Of a DNA stretch of 37,355 nucleotides, positions 991 through 19,357 are shown one piece after another. The notes under the pieces are model-generated. The model worked only from the letters and a program-made list of their open reading frames with translations. It searched no databases and was not told where the DNA came from. The position numbers and the translations under genes were made by a program. Source of the stretch: Acidobacteriota bacterium (lineage in GTDB: Bacteria > Acidobacteriota > Terriglobia > Bryobacterales > JACQDG01). Within the stretch, counting starts at the first letter, position 1. Every line of letters begins with the position of its first letter. The stretch spans positions 1 through 37,355 of the forward strand of contig JACQDG010000224.1 in NCBI GenBank assembly GCA_016201185.1, in the 5' to 3' direction.

Positions 991-1923
991 GTGAACGAAC
1001 AACCAACTTCCCCTGAAGAATCCGGAGAGGACAGGAACCCTGTCCCCCGCTGGCTGTCTTCATTCTTGCCTGCCTCGCCCGCCCGGTTCTTCCGCTCCCT
1101 GATCCGGCTTGTCGTTTTTTTTCTTTTTACATGGATCGCGTGGTGGCTCGTCGCCAAGATGATTACACCGCTGGTGGACATGCTGGTGGCCAGCGCCTTG
1201 TCGCTGGCTGTGGCTGTAGTCTCGATCACCGCGGTCATGATGCGCATCTACGAGCTCCAGCCTTTTTATGTGGTGGGATTCTTTTGGAATCGCGTGGCCC
1301 TGGCGCATCTGAAAATGGGGCTGGCGCTGGGGGCCGGCTCTTCCTTGTTGATAGTGCTGATCCAATGGGCCGGCGGGTGGGTCCGCTTGGAGCGCATCGG
1401 GCCGATTCCCAACGCCTGGGCGACCTTCCTTTTCGGCTTCTTCATCCTGGCGGTGGGGGCCACGGGAGAAGAGCTGCTCTTTCGAGGGTATGGTTTTCAA
1501 CACTTGATCTGCGCCTTTGGCCCCTGGTTTTCCATCCTGTTTACCTCCGGGCTGTTTGCCCTCGCGCACACGGCCAATCCTTCTTTTTCGCGCTTAAGCC
1601 TGATCAATACGGGCCTGTTCGGCCTGGTATTTGGTTATGCCTACTGGCGCACGCGGGATTTGTGGCTGCCACTCGGCATGCACTTTGCCTGGAATTTCTC
1701 TCTGACCACTATCGGCGCAACCGTCAGCGGGCTTAAAATTAAATTGACGGCAGTTTCCGTAGTTTCGGCCGGCTCGCGGCTGTGGAGCGGCGGTGATTAC
1801 GGGCCGGAGGCCAGCCTGGTGACCAGTTTTGTTCTGCTGGCGACGATGGGGCTTCTCTGGAAGCGACCCCCGGCCCGGCAGCAGCAGGGGATTGTCGCCG
1901 CCCAGTATGGAGGCCGGACATGA
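991..1923 (+). CDS. CPBP family intramembrane metalloprotease (CAAX protease-like)
   Basis: A 310-aa polytopic membrane protein starting at GTG 991. The three family motifs are visible: EELLFR (residues 160-165), FALAHT with His193, and HFAWNF with His231 and Asn235. These are the Glu/His residues expected of ABI/Rce1-type glutamic intramembrane proteases. Several hydrophobic segments (about 35-58, 66-86, 105-125, 142-156, 180-195, 205-220) fit a multi-span inner-membrane enzyme. The substrate cannot be told from sequence; bacterial homologues are linked to peptide maturation or self-immunity. It lies 28 bases after tdk and overlaps the next gene by ATGA, suggesting one operon. No clear ribosome-binding site precedes the GTG. 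Confidence 0.85.
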   Translation: MNEQPTSPEESGEDRNPVPRWLSSFLPASPARFFRSLIRLVVFFLFTWIAWWLVAKMITPLVDMLVASALSLAVAVVSITAVMMRIYELQPFYVVGFFWNRVALAHLKMGLALGAGSSLLIVLIQWAGGWVRLERIGPIPNAWATFLFGFFILAVGATGEELLFRGYGFQHLICAFGPWFSILFTSGLFALAHTANPSFSRLSLINTGLFGLVFGYAYWRTRDLWLPLGMHFAWNFSLTTIGATVSGLKIKLTAVSVVSAGSRLWSGGDYGPEASLVTSFVLLATMGLLWKRPPARQQQGIVAAQYGGRT

Positions 1924-2699
1924 GACGATCAGGAGCGTGGGTGCTCAGCGCCGGCTGGAGCTTGCTGGCTTGCGCTTCGCCTTCGCTGGCTGGCGAGAAG
2001 CTGACTTTTGCGGAGCGTACCGAGATTGTGCTGGGCCTGATGGCGGAATACGCCACGGTGAAAGTGGCCCTGCCGCGCTCGAAGAAGGCGCTGGAAGTCA
2101 CGGCCGCGGGCAAGCACGACAAGGAGAAGTGGGCCGAAGCGATGCAGCAGAACGGCCCGGCCGGCCGCGTCGGCGACCTGGTGCAGATTACCAAAGTGGG
2201 GATCGAAGGCGACCGGCTGCTGTTCGAGATCAACTACGGCATGAAAGGCCGGCGGCGATGGTGGCATAACGTGGAGGTGGGCACCAGCACCAGCGGCCGG
2301 ATGGCGCCCATCGCCCAGGATCAGAACAGCAACGCTCCGAGCGGCACCATGCTGGCATTGGTGTTCGACAAGCAGCTCCCGCCCCTCAAGGCCGCCGAGA
2401 TCAAGAAAATGCTCCAGCCCATTCTGGATTTCGAGAAGCACTCCGCCACGGAACTTTACACCGATACGCTGCCGAAAGAGTTTCAGGAGGCCATCAAGGC
2501 CAAGAAGGTTTTGGTCGGCATGGACCGGGAGATGGTCCTGCTGGCCAAGGGCCGCCCGGAAAACAAGCTGCGGGAGACCAAGGACGGCGTGGAGACGGAA
2601 GACTGGATTTTCGGCAAGCCCCCGGGCACTATCACCTTCGTGACCTTCGAGGGCGATAAGGTGATCCGAGTGAAGGATATGTACGCAGGAGCGCAATAG
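1920..2699 (+). CDS. Secreted hypothetical protein with BamE/SmpA-like C-terminal region
   Basis: A 259-aa protein whose ATG overlaps the stop of the CPBP gene (ATGA), so the two are translationally coupled. The N-terminus is a signal peptide (about residues 1-24, ending CASPSLAGE); the Cys within it leaves a lipoprotein reading open, but no clean lipobox follows. The body is Lys/Glu-rich. The C-terminal part (about 195-255: VLVGMDREMVLLAKGRP ... FVTFEGDKVIRV) has the pattern of a small BamE/SmpA-like fold, an early helix followed by strands. I do not recognise a named family for the whole. Export across the inner membrane is likely; the function is unknown. Confidence 0.75.
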   Translation: MRRSGAWVLSAGWSLLACASPSLAGEKLTFAERTEIVLGLMAEYATVKVALPRSKKALEVTAAGKHDKEKWAEAMQQNGPAGRVGDLVQITKVGIEGDRLLFEINYGMKGRRRWWHNVEVGTSTSGRMAPIAQDQNSNAPSGTMLALVFDKQLPPLKAAEIKKMLQPILDFEKHSATELYTDTLPKEFQEAIKAKKVLVGMDREMVLLAKGRPENKLRETKDGVETEDWIFGKPPGTITFVTFEGDKVIRVKDMYAGAQ

Positions 2700-2743
2700 G
2701 CCTCGGCTCCTGGCTTCCAACTTCTCAATCTAATGGAGGAACG

Positions 2744-3754
2744 ATGGCAGCAGTAAAGGTAGGCATCAACGGTTTCGGCCGGATCGGGCGCAATATTTAC
2801 CGGGCCGCGATCGACGCGGACGACGTCAACATCGTGGCCGTCAATGATATTACTGATACTAAGACCCTGGCCCATTTGCTCAAGTACGACTCGGTGCTGG
2901 GCAGCCTGTCGGCGCAAGTCAAGGCGACCGACAACTGCATCCACGTGGACGGCAATTATTTCCAGGTTACGGCGCAGAAGGACCCTGCGCAGATCGACTG
3001 GACCTCGCTGGAGGCCCAGATCGTGGTCGAGTCCACCGGCCGGTTCACCAAGGCCGAGGAGGCACGCAAGCACCTGCGCGGGTCGGTGAAGAAGGTGATC
3101 ATCTCGGCGCCGGCCACCGGGGAGGACCTGACCATAGTGCTGGGGGTCAACGACGACCGCTACGAGCCCGCCAGGCACTCTATTCTGTCTAACGCTTCCT
3201 GCACCACCAACTGCCTGGCGCCGGTGGCCAAAGTGCTGAACGACAGCTTCGGCATCACCAAGGGTGCCATGACCACCATTCACAGCTACACTAACGACCA
3301 GGTCATCCTCGACTTTCCGCATAAAGACCTGCGGCGGGCCCGGGCCGCGGCGCTGAATATGATCCCCACCAAGACCGGGGCGGCCAGCGCCATCGGCCTG
3401 GTGATTCCGGAACTCAAGGGCAAGCTGGACGGCTACGCCATGCGCGTGCCGACTCCCAACGTTTCCGTGGTGGACCTAGTGGCAGTGTTGAGCCGGGACG
3501 TCACGGCCGAGGAGATCAACGCCAAGCTGCGCGCTGCCGCCGAAGGGCCCCTGAAGGGCATTCTGGGGTACACCGAGGACCCCGTCGTTTCAAGCGACTT
3601 CATGCACGATCCGCGCAGCTCGATTGTGGATGCCACCATGACCCGCGTACTTGGCGGCAACCTGGTGAAGGTGCTGGCCTGGTACGACAACGAGTGGGGC
3701 TTTTCCTGCCGGGTCGTCGACCTGATTCGCTTGCTCGAGAAGCGGGGGCTGTGA
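2744..3754 (+). CDS. gap: Glyceraldehyde-3-phosphate dehydrogenase, type I
   Basis: A 336-aa full-length GAPDH, which oxidises glyceraldehyde-3-phosphate to 1,3-bisphosphoglycerate in glycolysis. The start is ATG 2744 with a good GGAGGA site just upstream. It has the Rossmann motif [10 protein letters not shown] (8-17), Asp35 of the NAD-binding VND motif, the catalytic SNASCTTNC with Cys153, His180 in the HSYT motif, and the C-terminal WYDNEWG. Asp35 favours NAD over NADP, a family rule not tested here. It is followed immediately by pgk (stop and start overlap by one base), the classic gap-pgk operon. The strong ribosome-binding site fits a highly expressed gene. Confidence 0.98.
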
Positions 3755-4923
3755 TGCCCCTTTCCCTTCGCGAGCTGGATCTCCGCGGCAAGCGTACCTT
3801 CATGCGGGTGGACTTCAATGTTCCGCTCGATCCCACGGGAAGCCAAATCACCAGCGACACGCGGATCAAGGCCTCTCTGCCCAGCATTCGGTATGCCCTG
3901 GAGAATGGAGCGGCGCTGACCCTGGCCTCTCACCTGGGCCGTCCCAAGGGCAAACCTAATCCAGTGATGAGCCTGAAGCCGGTGGCGGCGCGGCTTTCCG
4001 AACTGCTCGGCCGGCCCGTGACGATGGCGCCGGATTGTGTCGGTCCGGCGGTGCCGCCGGCGGCTCCGGGCGAGGTGGTCCTGCTCGAAAACCTTCGCTT
4101 CCACGCCGGGGAAGAAAGGAACGACGGGGAGTTTTCCCGGCAGCTCGCTTCCCTGTGCGACGTCTATGTCAACGATGCTTTCGGCTCGGCCCATCGGGCG
4201 CATGCCTCCACAGTGGGCATGGTGGAGTTCGTGCCCGTGGCCGCTGCCGGATTCCTGATGGAACAGGAGCTGAAGTATCTTTCCATGGCGGTCAGCTATC
4301 CTGTGCGGCCCTATGTCGGCATCCTGGGTGGCGCCAAAGTTTCCGACAAGATCGAGGTGATTACCAACCTGTTGAAGATTGTGGATCGTCTTTTGATCGG
4401 CGGCGCTATGGCTTACACGTTTCTGAAGTCTCTGGGATTCGGTGTCGGCCGGTCGCTGGTCGAGGATGACAAGCTAGGCTTGGCCAAACAGTTGCTCAAA
4501 GGGGCCTCCGACAAGCTACGGCTGCCACACGATCACGTGGTGGCCGCCGAATTGAAGGCCGACGCGGAGTGGGAGGTTGTGGATGGGGTCAATACTCCGA
4601 TCCCGAACGGCTGGATGGGCGTGGATATCGGCCCGCAGACCGTGGCTGCTTACGCTGAGGAAATCTCCAGCGCGAAAATGATTGTCTGGAACGGACCGAT
4701 GGGCGTCTTCGAGATCCCGCCATTTGCCAGGGGTACCATCGAGCTGGCCCAGGCTGTGGCCGCTTCCGGGGCTACGAGCATCGTCGGCGGCGGTGATTCG
4801 GAAAAAGCCATCAAGACGGCCGGTGTGGCCGACAAGATTACCCACATTTCCACCGGCGGAGGCGCCTCGCTGGAGTATCTCTCCGGCCGCACCCTACCAG
4901 GCGTGGCGGCGCTGGAAAAATAG
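3754..4923 (+). CDS. pgk: Phosphoglycerate kinase
   Basis: A 389-aa enzyme of normal family length that transfers phosphate from 1,3-bisphosphoglycerate to ADP. The ORF track begins inside gap; the ATG at 3754 overlaps the gap TGA by one base and gives the expected N-terminus. Motifs in order: [68 protein letters not shown] and [11 protein letters not shown]. These cover both substrate-binding lobes and the nucleotide site. Translation is probably coupled to gap. No separate promoter is seen. There is no obvious terminator in the 77 bases before the toxin-antitoxin pair. Confidence 0.98.
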
Positions 4924-12600: not shown

Positions 12601-13170
12601 TCCGGCCCACAGCCGCGCCGTCCCGTAACCGAGGTAGCCTGGCCCCGCCACCCCGAGCCAGATGATCACAGCAATAGCAGCCAGGCCCAAACCGGCAAAG
12701 GTCCAGATGGGGCCTGAGGAGGCAACCTCGGTCGGAGGCGCTTCAGCCGCGAGCTTAAGAGTGTCCTCGGCCAGCAGCGCCAGGATGGGGTTTGCACGAT
12801 CGTGCTTCTGGTCGGGCTTGTCCTGGCCGGCCTTGTTTTGATCCACCCAAGTCTGGATGCGCTGCTCGAAGGCGGGGAAGCGCCGCTCCAGCCGCCGGAC
12901 CCAGGGACTGCTTCCACCGGGCCGGCGCATGGCAAGCAACGGCCGCACCAGCACGGCCGCCACAATGGCCGCCAGCGCCCCGAACAGCGCCAGCCGCCCG
13001 AAAATCACACTCCAAGAGGCGAAGGCGAATCGATTCGTGAATAAGACGCACAGCAGGGTGAGAACCAGAGCCGCCGCCCCTGCGACTGCCAGCCCGCGGC
13101 TGGCCACGGTCATCTGCGCCCTCCGCTTCACTTCGCGAAGGTACTGCTCCAGAGCGAGGAAGGGATTCAT
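9625..13170 (-). CDS. Large DUF4175-type membrane protein with Gln-rich coiled coil
   Basis: The true start is ATG 13170 (the track's 13359 lies inside the BatA gene). It overlaps the BatA stop by ATGA and gives 1181 aa. Three hydrophobic spans lie near residues 24-46, 54-78 and 150-172. A beta-rich periplasmic region follows (about 180-510). A long helical region (about 530-1060) is very rich in Gln, Arg, Glu and Ala with several Gly/Gln tracts. The conserved end is PEEYRKAVADYFRRLSKE. This organisation matches DUF4175 proteins found beside MoxR/BatA genes in Acidobacteria and Bacteroidota. A role as envelope scaffold or stress partner of the ATPase is inference. It is the last gene of the cluster. 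Confidence 0.8.
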   Translation of the reverse strand: MNPFLALEQYLREVKRRAQMTVASRGLAVAGAAALVLTLLCVLFTNRFAFASWSVIFGRLALFGALAAIVAAVLVRPLLAMRRPGGSSPWVRRLERRFPAFEQRIQTWVDQNKAGQDKPDQKHDRANPILALLAEDTLKLAAEAPPTEVASSGPIWTFAGLGLAAIAVIIWLGVAGPGYLGYGTARLWAGWLRPSVSNLYQIVVEPGSVTIRRKADLLISARTIGFYSPTARLFAKFASGAKWEEAPMQRRLDDSGFEFVFAGVEESLRYYIAAGGVKSPEYKVRVVEMPHVKKLRLTYHYPSWTGLAVNTEEPGGDVRAVASTEVEVEVETDRPLPAGVLRLDGKVNIPLSNTQSGESTWSHGRLTVEKDGQYYVAALYNGEMVRLTDDFFIEAIPDREPTVRLSRPGRDYRATSIEEVTAQLEAEDDFGLKGFELRYSINGGPEKTVPLVPGGRKQGAASHTFPLENFSLVPGDVVSYYAVARDAKVESKTDMYFIEVQPFEREYRQAQQTGGGGGEGGDDESAQISRRQKEIVAATWNLARERSLDRLKAAEHAKTLSGLQSKLRDQARTLAERMKRRELVTASDDFKAFGDNMEKAAEAMGPASDKLGQQKWTDALPPEQKALQHLLRAEAIFRDIQVAFGNMGGGGGNMGRDLAEMFDLELDTAKNQYETGRQASAQERDRELDEALEKLRQLARRQEQLAEQQRRQQLPTFDQRWQQEMLRREAEDLARRLQQMQQQQQAGQSGQQGGQSASNLRRALDRLQQAARDMQAASSGSPQQAQSGGGAEAQRRAQERMREAEDLLSGERRQRASDEMEDLEKRANDMAERQQAMANKLQEAMRQALETQRANPGASDPITGRPLVAQGLSREQVQAMAREKEQMLSQLDSMESRMAETARRLAPTQPNASRRLRETVSNMREADLGPRLRWGADMLKRGMGLYAAQREEAVTQGFNQLRDGLKETRRLAQAEQQGGDQNLERALSRVEQLRRQLEQAQAAQRARQQGGGQQGQQPGEQQGGQPGGESQQAAPGAQRGGGNDARAGRDYSNRGDWQPTIPGRVPPIPIDPARVYREGQGELSQIERALRNDPALARDLEELRREIGRVGILPTGPGGNPLLLDREAQKLLLEAEQLELLLRRKLDEKQGAQVRAGAQQPVPEEYRKAVADYFRRLSKEK

Positions 13171-15209
13171 TCCGACTGCGCCTCTCGCCGCAGACCCAGA
13201 TGCAGGTTGCCCAGCAGCGATTCTATCACCGCTGCGGCCAGGGCTACCAGCATTACCGCCCGCCAGATGTCCTCTGGAGCACTTTGTGGGGCGCCCTTGG
13301 ATCCGGCGGGCGAAGCTGGATTGGGTGAAGTCGGCTCTGTCCGGCCGGTCGCCTTCCACAGCGCCAAGACATCCTCGTCGATCGGGCGCAGGTCGCTCTC
13401 CCGCGGGTCGGGATTGGCCGCTACCAGCTCCGTCTGGCCGGCGCGGCGAATCTCGTAAAAACCTGTACTGGTAAGAGTCATCTCACGGCTGGAAACGGCT
13501 TCTGCCAGGGTCAGGGCGCGGTGGCCGGAAGGGTCAATGACCTCAACCGTGGCCCGCGGGTCCCGCCGCTTGTGCAGCTCGAGGATAGAATCGACCGTTG
13601 CCTGCGTCGTCGTCTCTTCCACGCCGGACAGATAGCGGGCCGATTCGGCCACGAAGGGCACAAACAGCGGATGAATCGGCAGGTCGTTCCAGATGTTGTC
13701 GAGCGGGGAGGCCAGCGCCAGCAACCGCCCGGCGCCGAGCGCTTCTTCGATGAGCAGCGGCGAGCCGTCCGAAAGCCGTGCCAGCACCTTTTCGGCCGGC
13801 GTGTCCCAGCGCGCGTAGCGGAAAAACTTCACGCCCTCGAATCGTTTGGCCCCGCGCAGGGCCGGGTGGCTCGAGTCCATCTCGGCGACCTGCTGGAAGC
13901 GTTCCTTCTCGCGGCCCGTGTACTGAGCGTCGGCCACGCGCAGGCCGAGCACCGGCGCTGCGCCCTCCAGGGTTATGGACGGCCCGATCACCAGCAGGGC
14001 CGCGCCGCCGGCTTCGATGAACGCCTTCAGCCTCTTCTCGAACAAGGCCGGCAAGCGGGGAACGTCGGAGATGACGACGAATGCGAAGCGCTCGAGAGCC
14101 AGCGAGCCGGCGTCGGCCGGCGTGGCCGCCTGCAACATGAACATGGATTGCGCGGAGGACTCCAGGGCCGTGCGGTAGTAGAGCATCTCCCGTGCCCGCC
14201 CGCTCTGGTGGAGAAACAGGATCGGCAATGGGTCGGCGCGCTCGAAGGAAAGCAGACGCACGTCGTCGCCCGGCAGCGGATCGGCCGAATCGATGCGAAC
14301 CTCGCCGCGGCTGTGGCCGTGCGGGACCTCGAAATCCGCAAACTCCACCGTGGTCCGGCCGGACTCAGGCACGTCGGCGTTCTTCGAGGCCACCTGCCGG
14401 CCGTTGATGGCGAGCGTAACCCGGCGCGTGGTGGCCGGAGTGTCGAAGCCGGCCACGGTGACCTCGATCCGCGGCCGGGCTTTTTCATACAGGTGAAAGT
14501 CGCCCTTCACGCTTTCCACACACCAGTTGCGACCGACGCCCGTGGCGACGTTGTGTACCTCGAGCGACGCGTTCGTGGGCAGGCTGAGGTCGGCGAAGCG
14601 CCCCGGCATGGCGGATTGCTGGAAATCGGAGATCACGTGCACATTTGCGAGCGGCGCCGACTCCGGGCCGGCGCCTTGCGTCAGCGCACGCAGAGATTGG
14701 CCCAGCTCGCCATAGGAGTTGCGGGACCAGGTCGGCTCGAGCCCCTCGATGGCGCTTCGCAGCGCGGCGCGATCGCTCGAGGGCGCGTTCATCACGCGAA
14801 CGCCCGGCCCGAAACCAATTACCTGGGCCCGGTCGCCGGATCGCAGCCCGTCCACCAGCGCCAGCGCCTCGGCCTTCGCCTGCCTCCATCGTTCGCCGTA
14901 CCGCATGCTGAACGAGGTATCGATCGCTACCAGGCGGTTGCGGAATCCTCCGGACGAGCCGGTTACCGGGCGATAGAACGCGGGCCGGGCAAACGCCAGC
15001 GCCAGCAATGCCAGCAGCGCCAGCCGCGCCGCCAGCAGCAGCAGGTATCGCAGGCGGCGCTGGCGGATGGAGCGCTCCGTGCGGCGCTCAAAGAACATCA
15101 GCGAGCTGAACGGCACGCGCACGGGGTTCTGGCGCTCCAGCAGGTGCAGCCACAGCGGCAGCCCCAGCGCCACCAAACCCGCCAGGAACCAGGGCGCGAG
15201 AAGCGTCAT
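13167..15209 (-). CDS. BatA-like membrane protein with von Willebrand A domain
   Basis: A 680-aa protein. It begins with the BatA-type N-terminus: a span at 1-22, the conserved LERQNPVRVPFSSLMFF, and a second span around 55-75. A vWA domain follows with an intact MIDAS start DTSFS (Asp97, Ser99, Ser101). The C-terminal half has a GATase-like Rossmann region (FVVISDVPRLPALF, about 365-460) and a final membrane span near residue 655. MIDAS domains bind Mg and protein partners; BatA proteins work with MoxR ATPases and DUF58 proteins in envelope stress and maturation. It is coupled to DUF4175 by ATGA. Its normal partner DUF58 is separated from it here by two opposed genes. Confidence 0.85.
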   Translation of the reverse strand: MTLLAPWFLAGLVALGLPLWLHLLERQNPVRVPFSSLMFFERRTERSIRQRRLRYLLLLAARLALLALLALAFARPAFYRPVTGSSGGFRNRLVAIDTSFSMRYGERWRQAKAEALALVDGLRSGDRAQVIGFGPGVRVMNAPSSDRAALRSAIEGLEPTWSRNSYGELGQSLRALTQGAGPESAPLANVHVISDFQQSAMPGRFADLSLPTNASLEVHNVATGVGRNWCVESVKGDFHLYEKARPRIEVTVAGFDTPATTRRVTLAINGRQVASKNADVPESGRTTVEFADFEVPHGHSRGEVRIDSADPLPGDDVRLLSFERADPLPILFLHQSGRAREMLYYRTALESSAQSMFMLQAATPADAGSLALERFAFVVISDVPRLPALFEKRLKAFIEAGGAALLVIGPSITLEGAAPVLGLRVADAQYTGREKERFQQVAEMDSSHPALRGAKRFEGVKFFRYARWDTPAEKVLARLSDGSPLLIEEALGAGRLLALASPLDNIWNDLPIHPLFVPFVAESARYLSGVEETTTQATVDSILELHKRRDPRATVEVIDPSGHRALTLAEAVSSREMTLTSTGFYEIRRAGQTELVAANPDPRESDLRPIDEDVLALWKATGRTEPTSPNPASPAGSKGAPQSAPEDIWRAVMLVALAAAVIESLLGNLHLGLRREAQSE

Positions 15210-15260: not shown

Positions 15261-15827
15261 ATGGCTACCCAGACGCTCGTTACCTTCGACCAGTTCATGG
15301 ATTTGCCGGAGCAAGAGGGGGTGGATCGTGAACTGGACGAAGGCAGAGTCATTGAAATGCCCCATCCAAGCTTTTTGCATGGCGCCATTCAAGGCAGAGT
15401 GTTTCATTTCTTTACGGTTTATCTGGAACGAACCGGGGCCGACTTCCACGCCTCGCTGAACACGGGATTTCGTCTCGGGCCTGAAACCGTCCGAGCTCCG
15501 GACGTCTGCCTGGTTCGCAGGTCGTCTTACGCGGCGATGGAAGCGGTGAAAGGCGCCCTGCTGGGCTTTCCTGACCTTGCCGTGGAGATAGTATCCCCGA
15601 GCGATACGGCTGCCGACATGGACCGCAAGATCGAACAATATCTCCGCGCCGGGGCTGCCGCCGTGTGGGTCTTCTACCCGGAGACCCGGCACGTCATGAT
15701 TCGCCGGCGTTCGGGAGAAACACGCATAGTGACATCCGGGCAGACCCTGGAAGAGCCTGAGCTGCTTCCCGGCTTGAGCATCCTGGTAGATCACGTCTTT
15801 TCAGGAATTGAGGAATTGAAAAAGTAA
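15261..15827 (+). CDS. Uma2 family (DUF820) restriction-endonuclease-fold protein
   Basis: The real gene is the last 188 codons of a long artefactual track ORF. It starts at ATG 15261 with GAGAGAAGG upstream. Family motifs: RELDEGRVIEMP (23-34), HGAIQGRVFHF, APDVCLV with Asp81, DLAVEIVSPSD with Glu109, and DRKIEQYLRAGAAAVWVFYP. These place the Asp/Glu of a PD-(D/E)XK core as in Uma2 proteins, which are frequent and mobile in Cyanobacteria, Chloroflexi, Planctomycetes and Acidobacteria. Biochemical roles of the family are poorly known. It is transcribed against the surrounding MoxR/BatA cluster and together with the M28 gene, so it is probably part of an inserted islet. Confidence 0.88.
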   Translation: MATQTLVTFDQFMDLPEQEGVDRELDEGRVIEMPHPSFLHGAIQGRVFHFFTVYLERTGADFHASLNTGFRLGPETVRAPDVCLVRRSSYAAMEAVKGALLGFPDLAVEIVSPSDTAADMDRKIEQYLRAGAAAVWVFYPETRHVMIRRRSGETRIVTSGQTLEEPELLPGLSILVDHVFSGIEELKK

Positions 15828-15863
15828 AGTAGAGGTTGGCCTTCACATAGGAGCTTCCATATC

Positions 15864-15892
15864 TTAGTTGGCAACGCCGACGCCCTTATAGA
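15864..15892 (+). promoter_or_regulatory. Possible sigma-70-type promoter for the M28 peptidase
   Basis: TTAGTT (15864-15869) and TATAGA (15887-15892) are separated by 17 bases in the 99-base gap between Uma2 and the peptidase. Each matches four of six consensus positions. The predicted transcript would have a leader of about 25-30 bases containing the AGGGAGG ribosome-binding site. The match is modest and is supported mainly by position. Confidence 0.3.
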
Positions 15893-15926
15893 TGGAAATT
15901 CTGGTTCCGGCCAGGGAGGCACTGCC

Positions 15927-17582
15927 ATGAAGGCTCTGTGTACATTAATCTGGCTGTTGGGCTCTGCCCCGGTTTTCGCCCAACAGCTAAACCCAGCCGA
16001 CCGTTCCGCGGCTGAGGCCGCCATCAAAACGATCCGGGCGCAGGCCATCCGTGCGCACATGCGTTTTCTCTCCGACAGCCTGCTGGAAGGCCGCGCTCCC
16101 GGCACGCGCGGCTACGACATCGCAGCGCAATACGTAGCCACTCAAATGGAAGCCATGGGTCTGCGGCCCGCCGGAGTCAACGGAACATGGTTCCAGCCCG
16201 TTCCGCTGCGAAAAGCGGTGAATGATGCTTCCCGGAGCTCGTATGTGCTGGTGGGGGACGGCAAGGAACAAAAGCTTGCCGATACTGCGGATTACGTGTT
16301 CGGCGGTGACCTACTGCGTGCCGAGAGCAGCGTCGAGGCCCCGCTCGTCTTCGTTGGCTTTGGTGCGACCGCGCCCGAGATGAACTACGATGATTACGCC
16401 GGCGCGAACGTACGCAACAAGATAGTCGTCCTGATTCAAGGCGCCCCACCAAGATTCCCCTCCACAGTACGCGCCTACTATTCCAGTAGGGTGGTCAAAG
16501 AGCAGAATGCAGTGGCTCATGGGGCTGCGGGCACGACCACAATCCTTTTGCCGGAAGATCAGAAGCGTGTCCGCTGGGATTGGATAGTCCCTCAGATCAA
16601 GGCTGGCCAAGTGCAATGGCTCGACGCCGCGCGTACGCCTCACGATGTGTTCCCCGAATTGCGCGTCGGAGCGCTCTTCAGCCAGCACGGAGCGGAGATG
16701 CTATTCGCTGGCGCGCCCAAGACACTGGACCAGGCTTTTGCAGCGGCGCGCGCCAACCAGCCGCAGGCTTTCCCCCTGGCGTCGAGCGCGCGAATCCACA
16801 GGGTGAGCACCCACACGGAATTTGAGAGTCCGAACATTATCGCTAAGCTTGAGGGCTCCGATCCTGCGCTTCGCGATCAGTACGTGGTGTATACGGCCCA
16901 TGTGGATCATCTCGGCCTGTGTCCGCCCGTCGAAGGGGACAAGGTGTGCCATGGCGCCTGGGACAATGCGTCCGGGACCGCTAGCCTGCTGGAAATCGCG
17001 CGAGCATTCACCAGCTTGCCACGGTCGCCCCGCCGCTCCGTGCTCTTCGTATTCGTCACAGGCGAAGAGATGGGCCTACTGGGTTCTGACTACTTCGCTC
17101 ATTTCCCCGCTGTGTTGATCGAGAACATAATCGCCAATCTCAACATAGATGGGTCTCCTAGCATGCTCACTTCGAGTAAGTATCTTACTGCCTATGGTGG
17201 TGAGCACTCCAGCCTGGGTAAAAATGCCGAATCGGCCGCCCAACAAGTCGGTTACAAGATCAGTCCCGATCTTATGCCTGAGGAGGTCTTGTTCATTCGG
17301 AGCGATCAGTATTCTTTTGTCCTTCAGGGTGTGCCCTCCCTCTTTATTATTGACGGTGCCGACGGCCTGGATGTGGGGCGGAAGTGGCTGACAACCAAAT
17401 ACCACACTCCTCTCGACAACGTGAACCAGCCTCTCGACTACGAATCAGGTGCGCGGGGGGCTCGAATGAATTTTCTGGTGGGATACGAAGTCGCCCAGCA
17501 GGACCAGCCTCCCGCCTGGAATGAGGGAGACTTTTTCGGCTCGAAGTTCGGGCGTGGCCGCGCAGCGAACACGAGAAAATGA
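15927..17582 (+). CDS. Secreted M28-family zinc aminopeptidase with PA insert
   Basis: A 551-aa exported peptidase. The signal peptide ends at about residue 19 (APVFAQQ). A PA-like insert (about 110-290) precedes and interrupts the catalytic domain. The zinc and catalytic residues are complete: His325 in HVDHLG, Asp346 in WDNASG, the Glu380-Glu381 pair in TGEEMG, Asp408 in NLNIDG, and His493 in KYHTPLDN. It should remove N-terminal residues from peptides outside the cytoplasm. The start is ATG 15927 with GGGAGG upstream. Codon use is visibly more A/T-rich at third positions than in its neighbours. With Uma2 it lies antiparallel inside a - strand cluster, which suggests later insertion. Confidence 0.93.
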   Translation: MKALCTLIWLLGSAPVFAQQLNPADRSAAEAAIKTIRAQAIRAHMRFLSDSLLEGRAPGTRGYDIAAQYVATQMEAMGLRPAGVNGTWFQPVPLRKAVNDASRSSYVLVGDGKEQKLADTADYVFGGDLLRAESSVEAPLVFVGFGATAPEMNYDDYAGANVRNKIVVLIQGAPPRFPSTVRAYYSSRVVKEQNAVAHGAAGTTTILLPEDQKRVRWDWIVPQIKAGQVQWLDAARTPHDVFPELRVGALFSQHGAEMLFAGAPKTLDQAFAAARANQPQAFPLASSARIHRVSTHTEFESPNIIAKLEGSDPALRDQYVVYTAHVDHLGLCPPVEGDKVCHGAWDNASGTASLLEIARAFTSLPRSPRRSVLFVFVTGEEMGLLGSDYFAHFPAVLIENIIANLNIDGSPSMLTSSKYLTAYGGEHSSLGKNAESAAQQVGYKISPDLMPEEVLFIRSDQYSFVLQGVPSLFIIDGADGLDVGRKWLTTKYHTPLDNVNQPLDYESGARGARMNFLVGYEVAQQDQPPAWNEGDFFGSKFGRGRAANTRK

Positions 17583-17657: not shown

Positions 17658-18311
17658 TCACATCCTCTTCTGCCGGAACAGCAGGTACTCCTTCAGCGCT
17701 GTGTCCAGGGGCCTGGAAGTATCTAGCAACAGATAATCGGCCCCGGCGCCCCGGGCTTCCGCCTGCAATTTCTGGATGTGGGACTGGATCAGGCGGCGGT
17801 ATTCCTGGCGGGCGTACTCCGGGGCCACCTCCATGCGCTCGCCGGTTTCCATGTCCTCGAGCAGGGCGGCATCGCTCAGTTGCGGGACCAGCTCCGCCGG
17901 GTCCAGAACGTGGACCAGGATGATGTCGTTGCCCACCGCGTCGTGCTGGTGAAGCGCCAGGTAGGCGAGCGAGGCGGCCAGGTAGCGGGCGAACTCGATC
18001 TTGCTCACGCCGCTCGAGCGATAGCCCATGGAGGCGCTGGAATCAAACAAGAGAACCAACTGGGTGTTCGTTTCGCCCAGGTAGCGTTTCAAGTAGGTCC
18101 GCTCGGTGCGGGCGAAGACGTTCCAGTCGACGAAGCGCGGATCGTCGCCCGGGACGTAGGGGCGATACTCGGCGAATTCCTGGCTGAAGCCGAAGTACGG
18201 CGAGCGGTGCAGGCCGGCCACGAAGCCCTCCACCACGGTGCGAGCCACGAGCTCGATGGTCGAGATGCGGCTCAGCACCTGCGGGTCGAGAAGGCGTTGG
18301 GGGGCGGCCAT
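17658..18311 (-). CDS. DUF58 protein with apparent in-frame internal deletion of the vWA-like domain
   Basis: A 217-aa member of a family usually near 290-300 aa. The N-terminal half is normal: the FSQEFAEYRPYVPGDDPRFVDW signature (about 42-63) and the MIDAS-like DSSASM (90-95). The C-terminal end is also normal (VHVLDPAEL, then the tail ending LFRQKRM). Between them the family's HQxDAVGL...F strand should be followed by about 80 residues before the xGND-type strand. Here AVG at 125-127 runs directly into NDIILVHVLD. The frame is intact, so this is a clean loss of central strands and helices. The protein may be unfolded, may keep a scaffold role, or the gap may be an assembly collapse. It lies 20 bases after MoxR. 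Confidence 0.8.
   Translation of the reverse strand: MAAPQRLLDPQVLSRISTIELVARTVVEGFVAGLHRSPYFGFSQEFAEYRPYVPGDDPRFVDWNVFARTERTYLKRYLGETNTQLVLLFDSSASMGYRSSGVSKIEFARYLAASLAYLALHQHDAVGNDIILVHVLDPAELVPQLSDAALLEDMETGERMEVAPEYARQEYRRLIQSHIQKLQAEARGAGADYLLLDTSRPLDTALKEYLLFRQKRM

Positions 18312-18331: not shown

Positions 18332-19357
<1,026 letters not shown>

Follow-up and report, generated by a model that had tools for sequence, protein, structure and literature searches.

Proteins of the DUF58 family (PF01882) are vWA-like proteins associated with MoxR in the Bat/MoxR operon, with a usual length of 290–300 aa. A related arrangement is that of NorQ/NorD, where the vWA-domain protein NorD is likewise the partner of a MoxR AAA+ ATPase, and exchange of the Thr or the Asp of its MIDAS left the target enzyme without activity but did not prevent the co-purification of NorQ (PMC9976466). 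The vWA domain of NorD and BatB (PDB 3ibs) have the same fold as that modelled for a full-length relative of the protein described here. The latter is encoded in a stretch of 37,355 nucleotides from an Acidobacteriota genome (contig JACQDG010000224.1, hereafter the window) and shares with the DUF58 family the N-terminal PGDD...DW and DxSxS motifs, the C-terminal HVLDP...DMETG...RQKRM motifs and the place after MoxR, but it lacks 80 residues, with which three helices, the strands beta-2 to beta-4 and the Thr and Asp of the MIDAS have gone, and the model of the short protein no longer matches the NorD and BatB folds. The features of the locus are as follows:

17658..18311, minus strand: DUF58 gene with an 80-codon internal deletion, 217 aa (ORF list; Pfam DUF58 E 1.2e-27)
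17931..17933, minus strand: deletion junction at a shared GGC codon (Gly127), 3–4 bp microhomology (blastn to the nearest relative; microhomology computation)
18030..18044, minus strand: surviving first MIDAS motif DSSAS, residues 90–94 (invariant alignment columns D90, S92 and S94)
18332..19330, minus strand: MoxR AAA+ ATPase, intact, immediately upstream of DUF58 (Pfam AAA_3 E 2.4e-60; no gap against relatives)
13167..15209, minus strand: BatA/vWA protein, intact (Pfam BatA, VWA_2; synteny; no gap against relatives)
about 15270–15827, plus strand: Uma2 gene (Pfam Uma2 E 2.1e-30)
15927–17582, plus strand: M28 peptidase gene (Pfam Peptidase_M28 E 8.8e-41)

The original prediction, drawn from the letters of the window alone, was of a DUF58 protein with an intact frame that had lost about 80 residues from the middle of its domain. 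This was borne out, and the deletion is a genuine feature of the assembled sequence. The open reading frame starts with an ATG about 20 nt past the MoxR stop codon and encodes 217 aa, against 296 aa for its full-length counterpart in the nearest relative (L004; JACQDD010000217.1, Acidobacteriales MAG NC_groundwater_985), which also neighbours MoxR and shows 85% amino-acid identity over the shared residues. In blastn, the two genes aligned as two collinear blocks flanking positions 930–1169 of L004, exactly 240 nt (80 codons) being absent from the window, which correspond to residues 126–205 of the L004 protein. The junction was located at codon 127, within the interval 17928–17936 where it had been expected. 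Membership of the family is clear by score (97 bits against a gathering cut-off of 23.4), but only positions 1–80 of the 216 in the Pfam profile are covered, whereas the L004 protein covers positions 1–214.

The alignment to DUF58 relatives, which had been proposed as a check, showed that all 99 relatives with both halves of the protein carry the middle, the segment absent here measuring 80 aa in 68 of them, 81–91 aa in 30 and 97 aa in one. Global alignments with the 12 best relatives placed one gap of 80–81 aa at residue 126 in every case. The short form was not found among 61 relatives searched nor, among the matches listed, in 399 genomes of the same class, where a genuine short form should appear among the first matches, given their ordering by E-value. 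Moreover, a junction-centred query against 396 genomes of the same phylum gave no other junction-spanning match in a short frame, all the partial matches across the junction lying in frames of at least 292 aa. In the one other genome of the same family that was covered (G001), no clear orthologue of the gene was found. A short form common to a whole clade could thus be ruled out, since no relative surveyed has one.

In structural terms, the deletion opens where helix alpha-1 ends and closes where strand beta-5 begins. The elements lost are, in order, the greater part of beta-2, beta-3, a pair of helices, beta-4 and one more helix, and altogether the protein is short of three helices, three core strands out of six and two MIDAS motifs out of three. 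The N-terminal half had been regarded as holding the MIDAS, which is correct for the first motif, DSSAS, but not for the Thr and Asp motifs, since the stretch that was lost contains both T163 (nearly invariant) and D187 (invariant across the alignment, as is S186) of L004. AlphaFold modelled the full-length L004 protein as a vWA-like domain (pLDDT 82.9, pTM 0.81), with 177 PDB matches at E ≤ 0.001, including BatB (E 1.4e-9), the MDN1 MIDAS and NorD in NorQD complexes. With the reservation that AlphaFold was not designed for judging deletions, the model of the 217-aa protein (pLDDT 75.7, pTM 0.67) kept a confident C-terminal half (pLDDT about 90), showed low confidence at the junction (residues 124–127), no longer formed a strand at beta-1 (residues 84–91) and gave no PDB match at E ≤ 0.001, the best being small GTPases at E 0.53. 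The structure prediction suggested at the outset therefore predicts a shortened domain that has left the vWA fold. By analogy with NorD, the 217-aa protein should lack target binding, even were some contact with MoxR kept.

As regards selection, the comparison of the retained parts between the window and L004 gave a dN of 0.086 and a dS of 0.65 (ratio 0.13), the ratio being 0.12 for the C-terminal part of MoxR in the same pair. When the amino-acid changes were polarised with 48 outgroups, the window branch received 8 and the L004 branch 12, a further 13 being ambiguous, with no excess on the former. By a rough estimate, with a branch dS of about 0.33 and some 470 nonsynonymous sites, roughly 150 changes would be expected had the branch been fully neutral throughout, against the 8 seen, and any neutral phase was therefore short relative to the branch. 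Well-conserved positions are hit by two changes specific to the window, Y107F and F133V, the latter adjoining the junction, and they are too few to interpret. A long-standing pseudogene is unsupported by this substitution pattern. If the deletion abolished function, the lack of relaxed constraint in the substitutions would indicate that it is recent.

A minimal functional variant had also been considered, where the 217-aa protein would fold around the remaining strands and keep a MIDAS-independent role such as MoxR binding. In fact, several observations count against a loss of function: the intact frame and the purifying selection on the retained parts are equally expected of a functional short protein, the deletion boundaries fall close to the loops that connect secondary-structure elements, which would suit a tolerated deletion, the C-terminal half is modelled with confidence, and the point mutants of the NorD MIDAS still co-purified with their ATPase (PMC9976466). 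Nevertheless, the absence of the short form from the relatives, the loss of beta-1 and of every vWA match in the model, and the removal of two MIDAS motifs out of three, with the invariant Asp among the residues lost, leave this variant poorly supported, and we consider it improbable. It is even more doubtful that the protein is a stable, functional mini-DUF58 working with MoxR without a MIDAS, which would make part of the vWA domain dispensable.

The sequence at the junction offers a candidate mechanism for the loss. The repeat common to both ends of the deletion is GGC, extending to GGCA on the assumption that the ancestor, like most relatives, carried Gly at the left boundary. L004 was used as the stand-in for the ancestor, because the boundary-sequence regular expression matched it alone among the relatives, and with this proxy about 6% of random deletions of 120–400 bp within the gene have at least 3 bp of homology and about 2% at least 4 bp. 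These figures are compatible with slippage at short repeats, without proving it.

The explanation which we favour, with a probability of about 0.62, is a recent in-frame deletion that inactivated the DUF58 protein. Short direct repeats, GGC or GGCA, would have served as the ends of a single, recent, illegitimate 240-bp deletion in an otherwise ordinary MoxR-associated DUF58 (vWA-like) gene, the reading frame being kept by chance and helix alpha-1 being joined straight to strand beta-5. The product would most likely be unable to fold as a vWA domain or to bind a metal-dependent partner, and a loss-of-function allele inside an otherwise full-length MoxR-Bat operon is therefore probable. A recent, precise deletion was among the options originally put forward, and it gains support from the fact that the event is unique to this genome, in frame, flanked by short microhomology and without a long period of relaxed constraint. 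A one-off loss disabling the protein is most likely, rather than a new compact version of it. What was observed is the deletion with its length and place, the lack of it in relatives and the missing motifs; the loss of the fold is a prediction, while recency, slippage as the mechanism and loss of function are inferred. The locus illustrates cleanly how a gene can lose an internal segment in frame and would still be called DUF58 by annotation pipelines, with the metal site gone and the fold probably so. Should the short protein work, it would provide a natural test of whether the partners of MoxR need the MIDAS for ATPase binding or for target binding alone.

The source genome is a fragmented draft (3.64 Mb, 497 contigs, 64.75% complete), and an assembly collapse had been raised as a third option. 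Ordinary repeat collapse is an improbable cause, since the ends share 3–4 bp, far below what it needs. General sequence loss in the contig was not seen either: six operon partners (MoxR, BatA and the vWA/GATase-like, caspase-like, TPR and DUF4175-like proteins) showed no comparable gap against relatives. The part of this option that stood is a junction that would have arisen in assembly along a chimeric or minor-strain path lacking the 240 bases, the main allele being full length. The fragmentation of the draft, the restriction of the short form to this one genome among those searched and the lack of decay in the retained parts would all fit such a path, the main rival to the favoured explanation, but we hold it to be the less likely of the two: the gap has no equivalent in the other operon genes, the frame was kept where chance gives one in three, and a search of the genome's other contigs for the missing segment gave only a chance-level match (E 0.4), which is a weak argument at 65% completeness.

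The surrounding operon is otherwise full length. The genes of the MoxR-Bat cluster are all present on the minus strand in the order (vWA/GATase)-caspase-like-TPR-MoxR-DUF58-BatA-DUF4175, but the Uma2 and M28 peptidase genes (15270..17582, plus strand) separate DUF58 from BatA, being absent at that place in relatives. Where the flank was long enough, nearly all close relatives have BatA immediately after DUF58, and after BatA the DUF4175-like gene, all three on one strand. MoxR and BatA had been described as intact, which holds for their coding sequences, but BatA no longer stands directly after DUF58. The region downstream of DUF58 thus appears, from gene order, to have been rearranged in the window lineage. 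In L004, the gene that follows DUF58 (1464–4691) is also other than BatA: it encodes a large protein of 1075 aa, named by sequence reading as carboxypeptidase-regulatory/TonB-receptor-like, and a search for BatA in the L004 genome (2.9 Mb, probably incomplete) gave no match.

A second MoxR-DUF58 pair was observed on another contig of the window's own genome (C369, L002), where DUF58 reads through the region of the MIDAS Asp (LSDFL motif), and therefore another copy of the MoxR-DUF58 module remains in the genome. A distant, membrane-type DUF58-like protein is also encoded there, as an open frame of 400 aa on contig C430 (L003).
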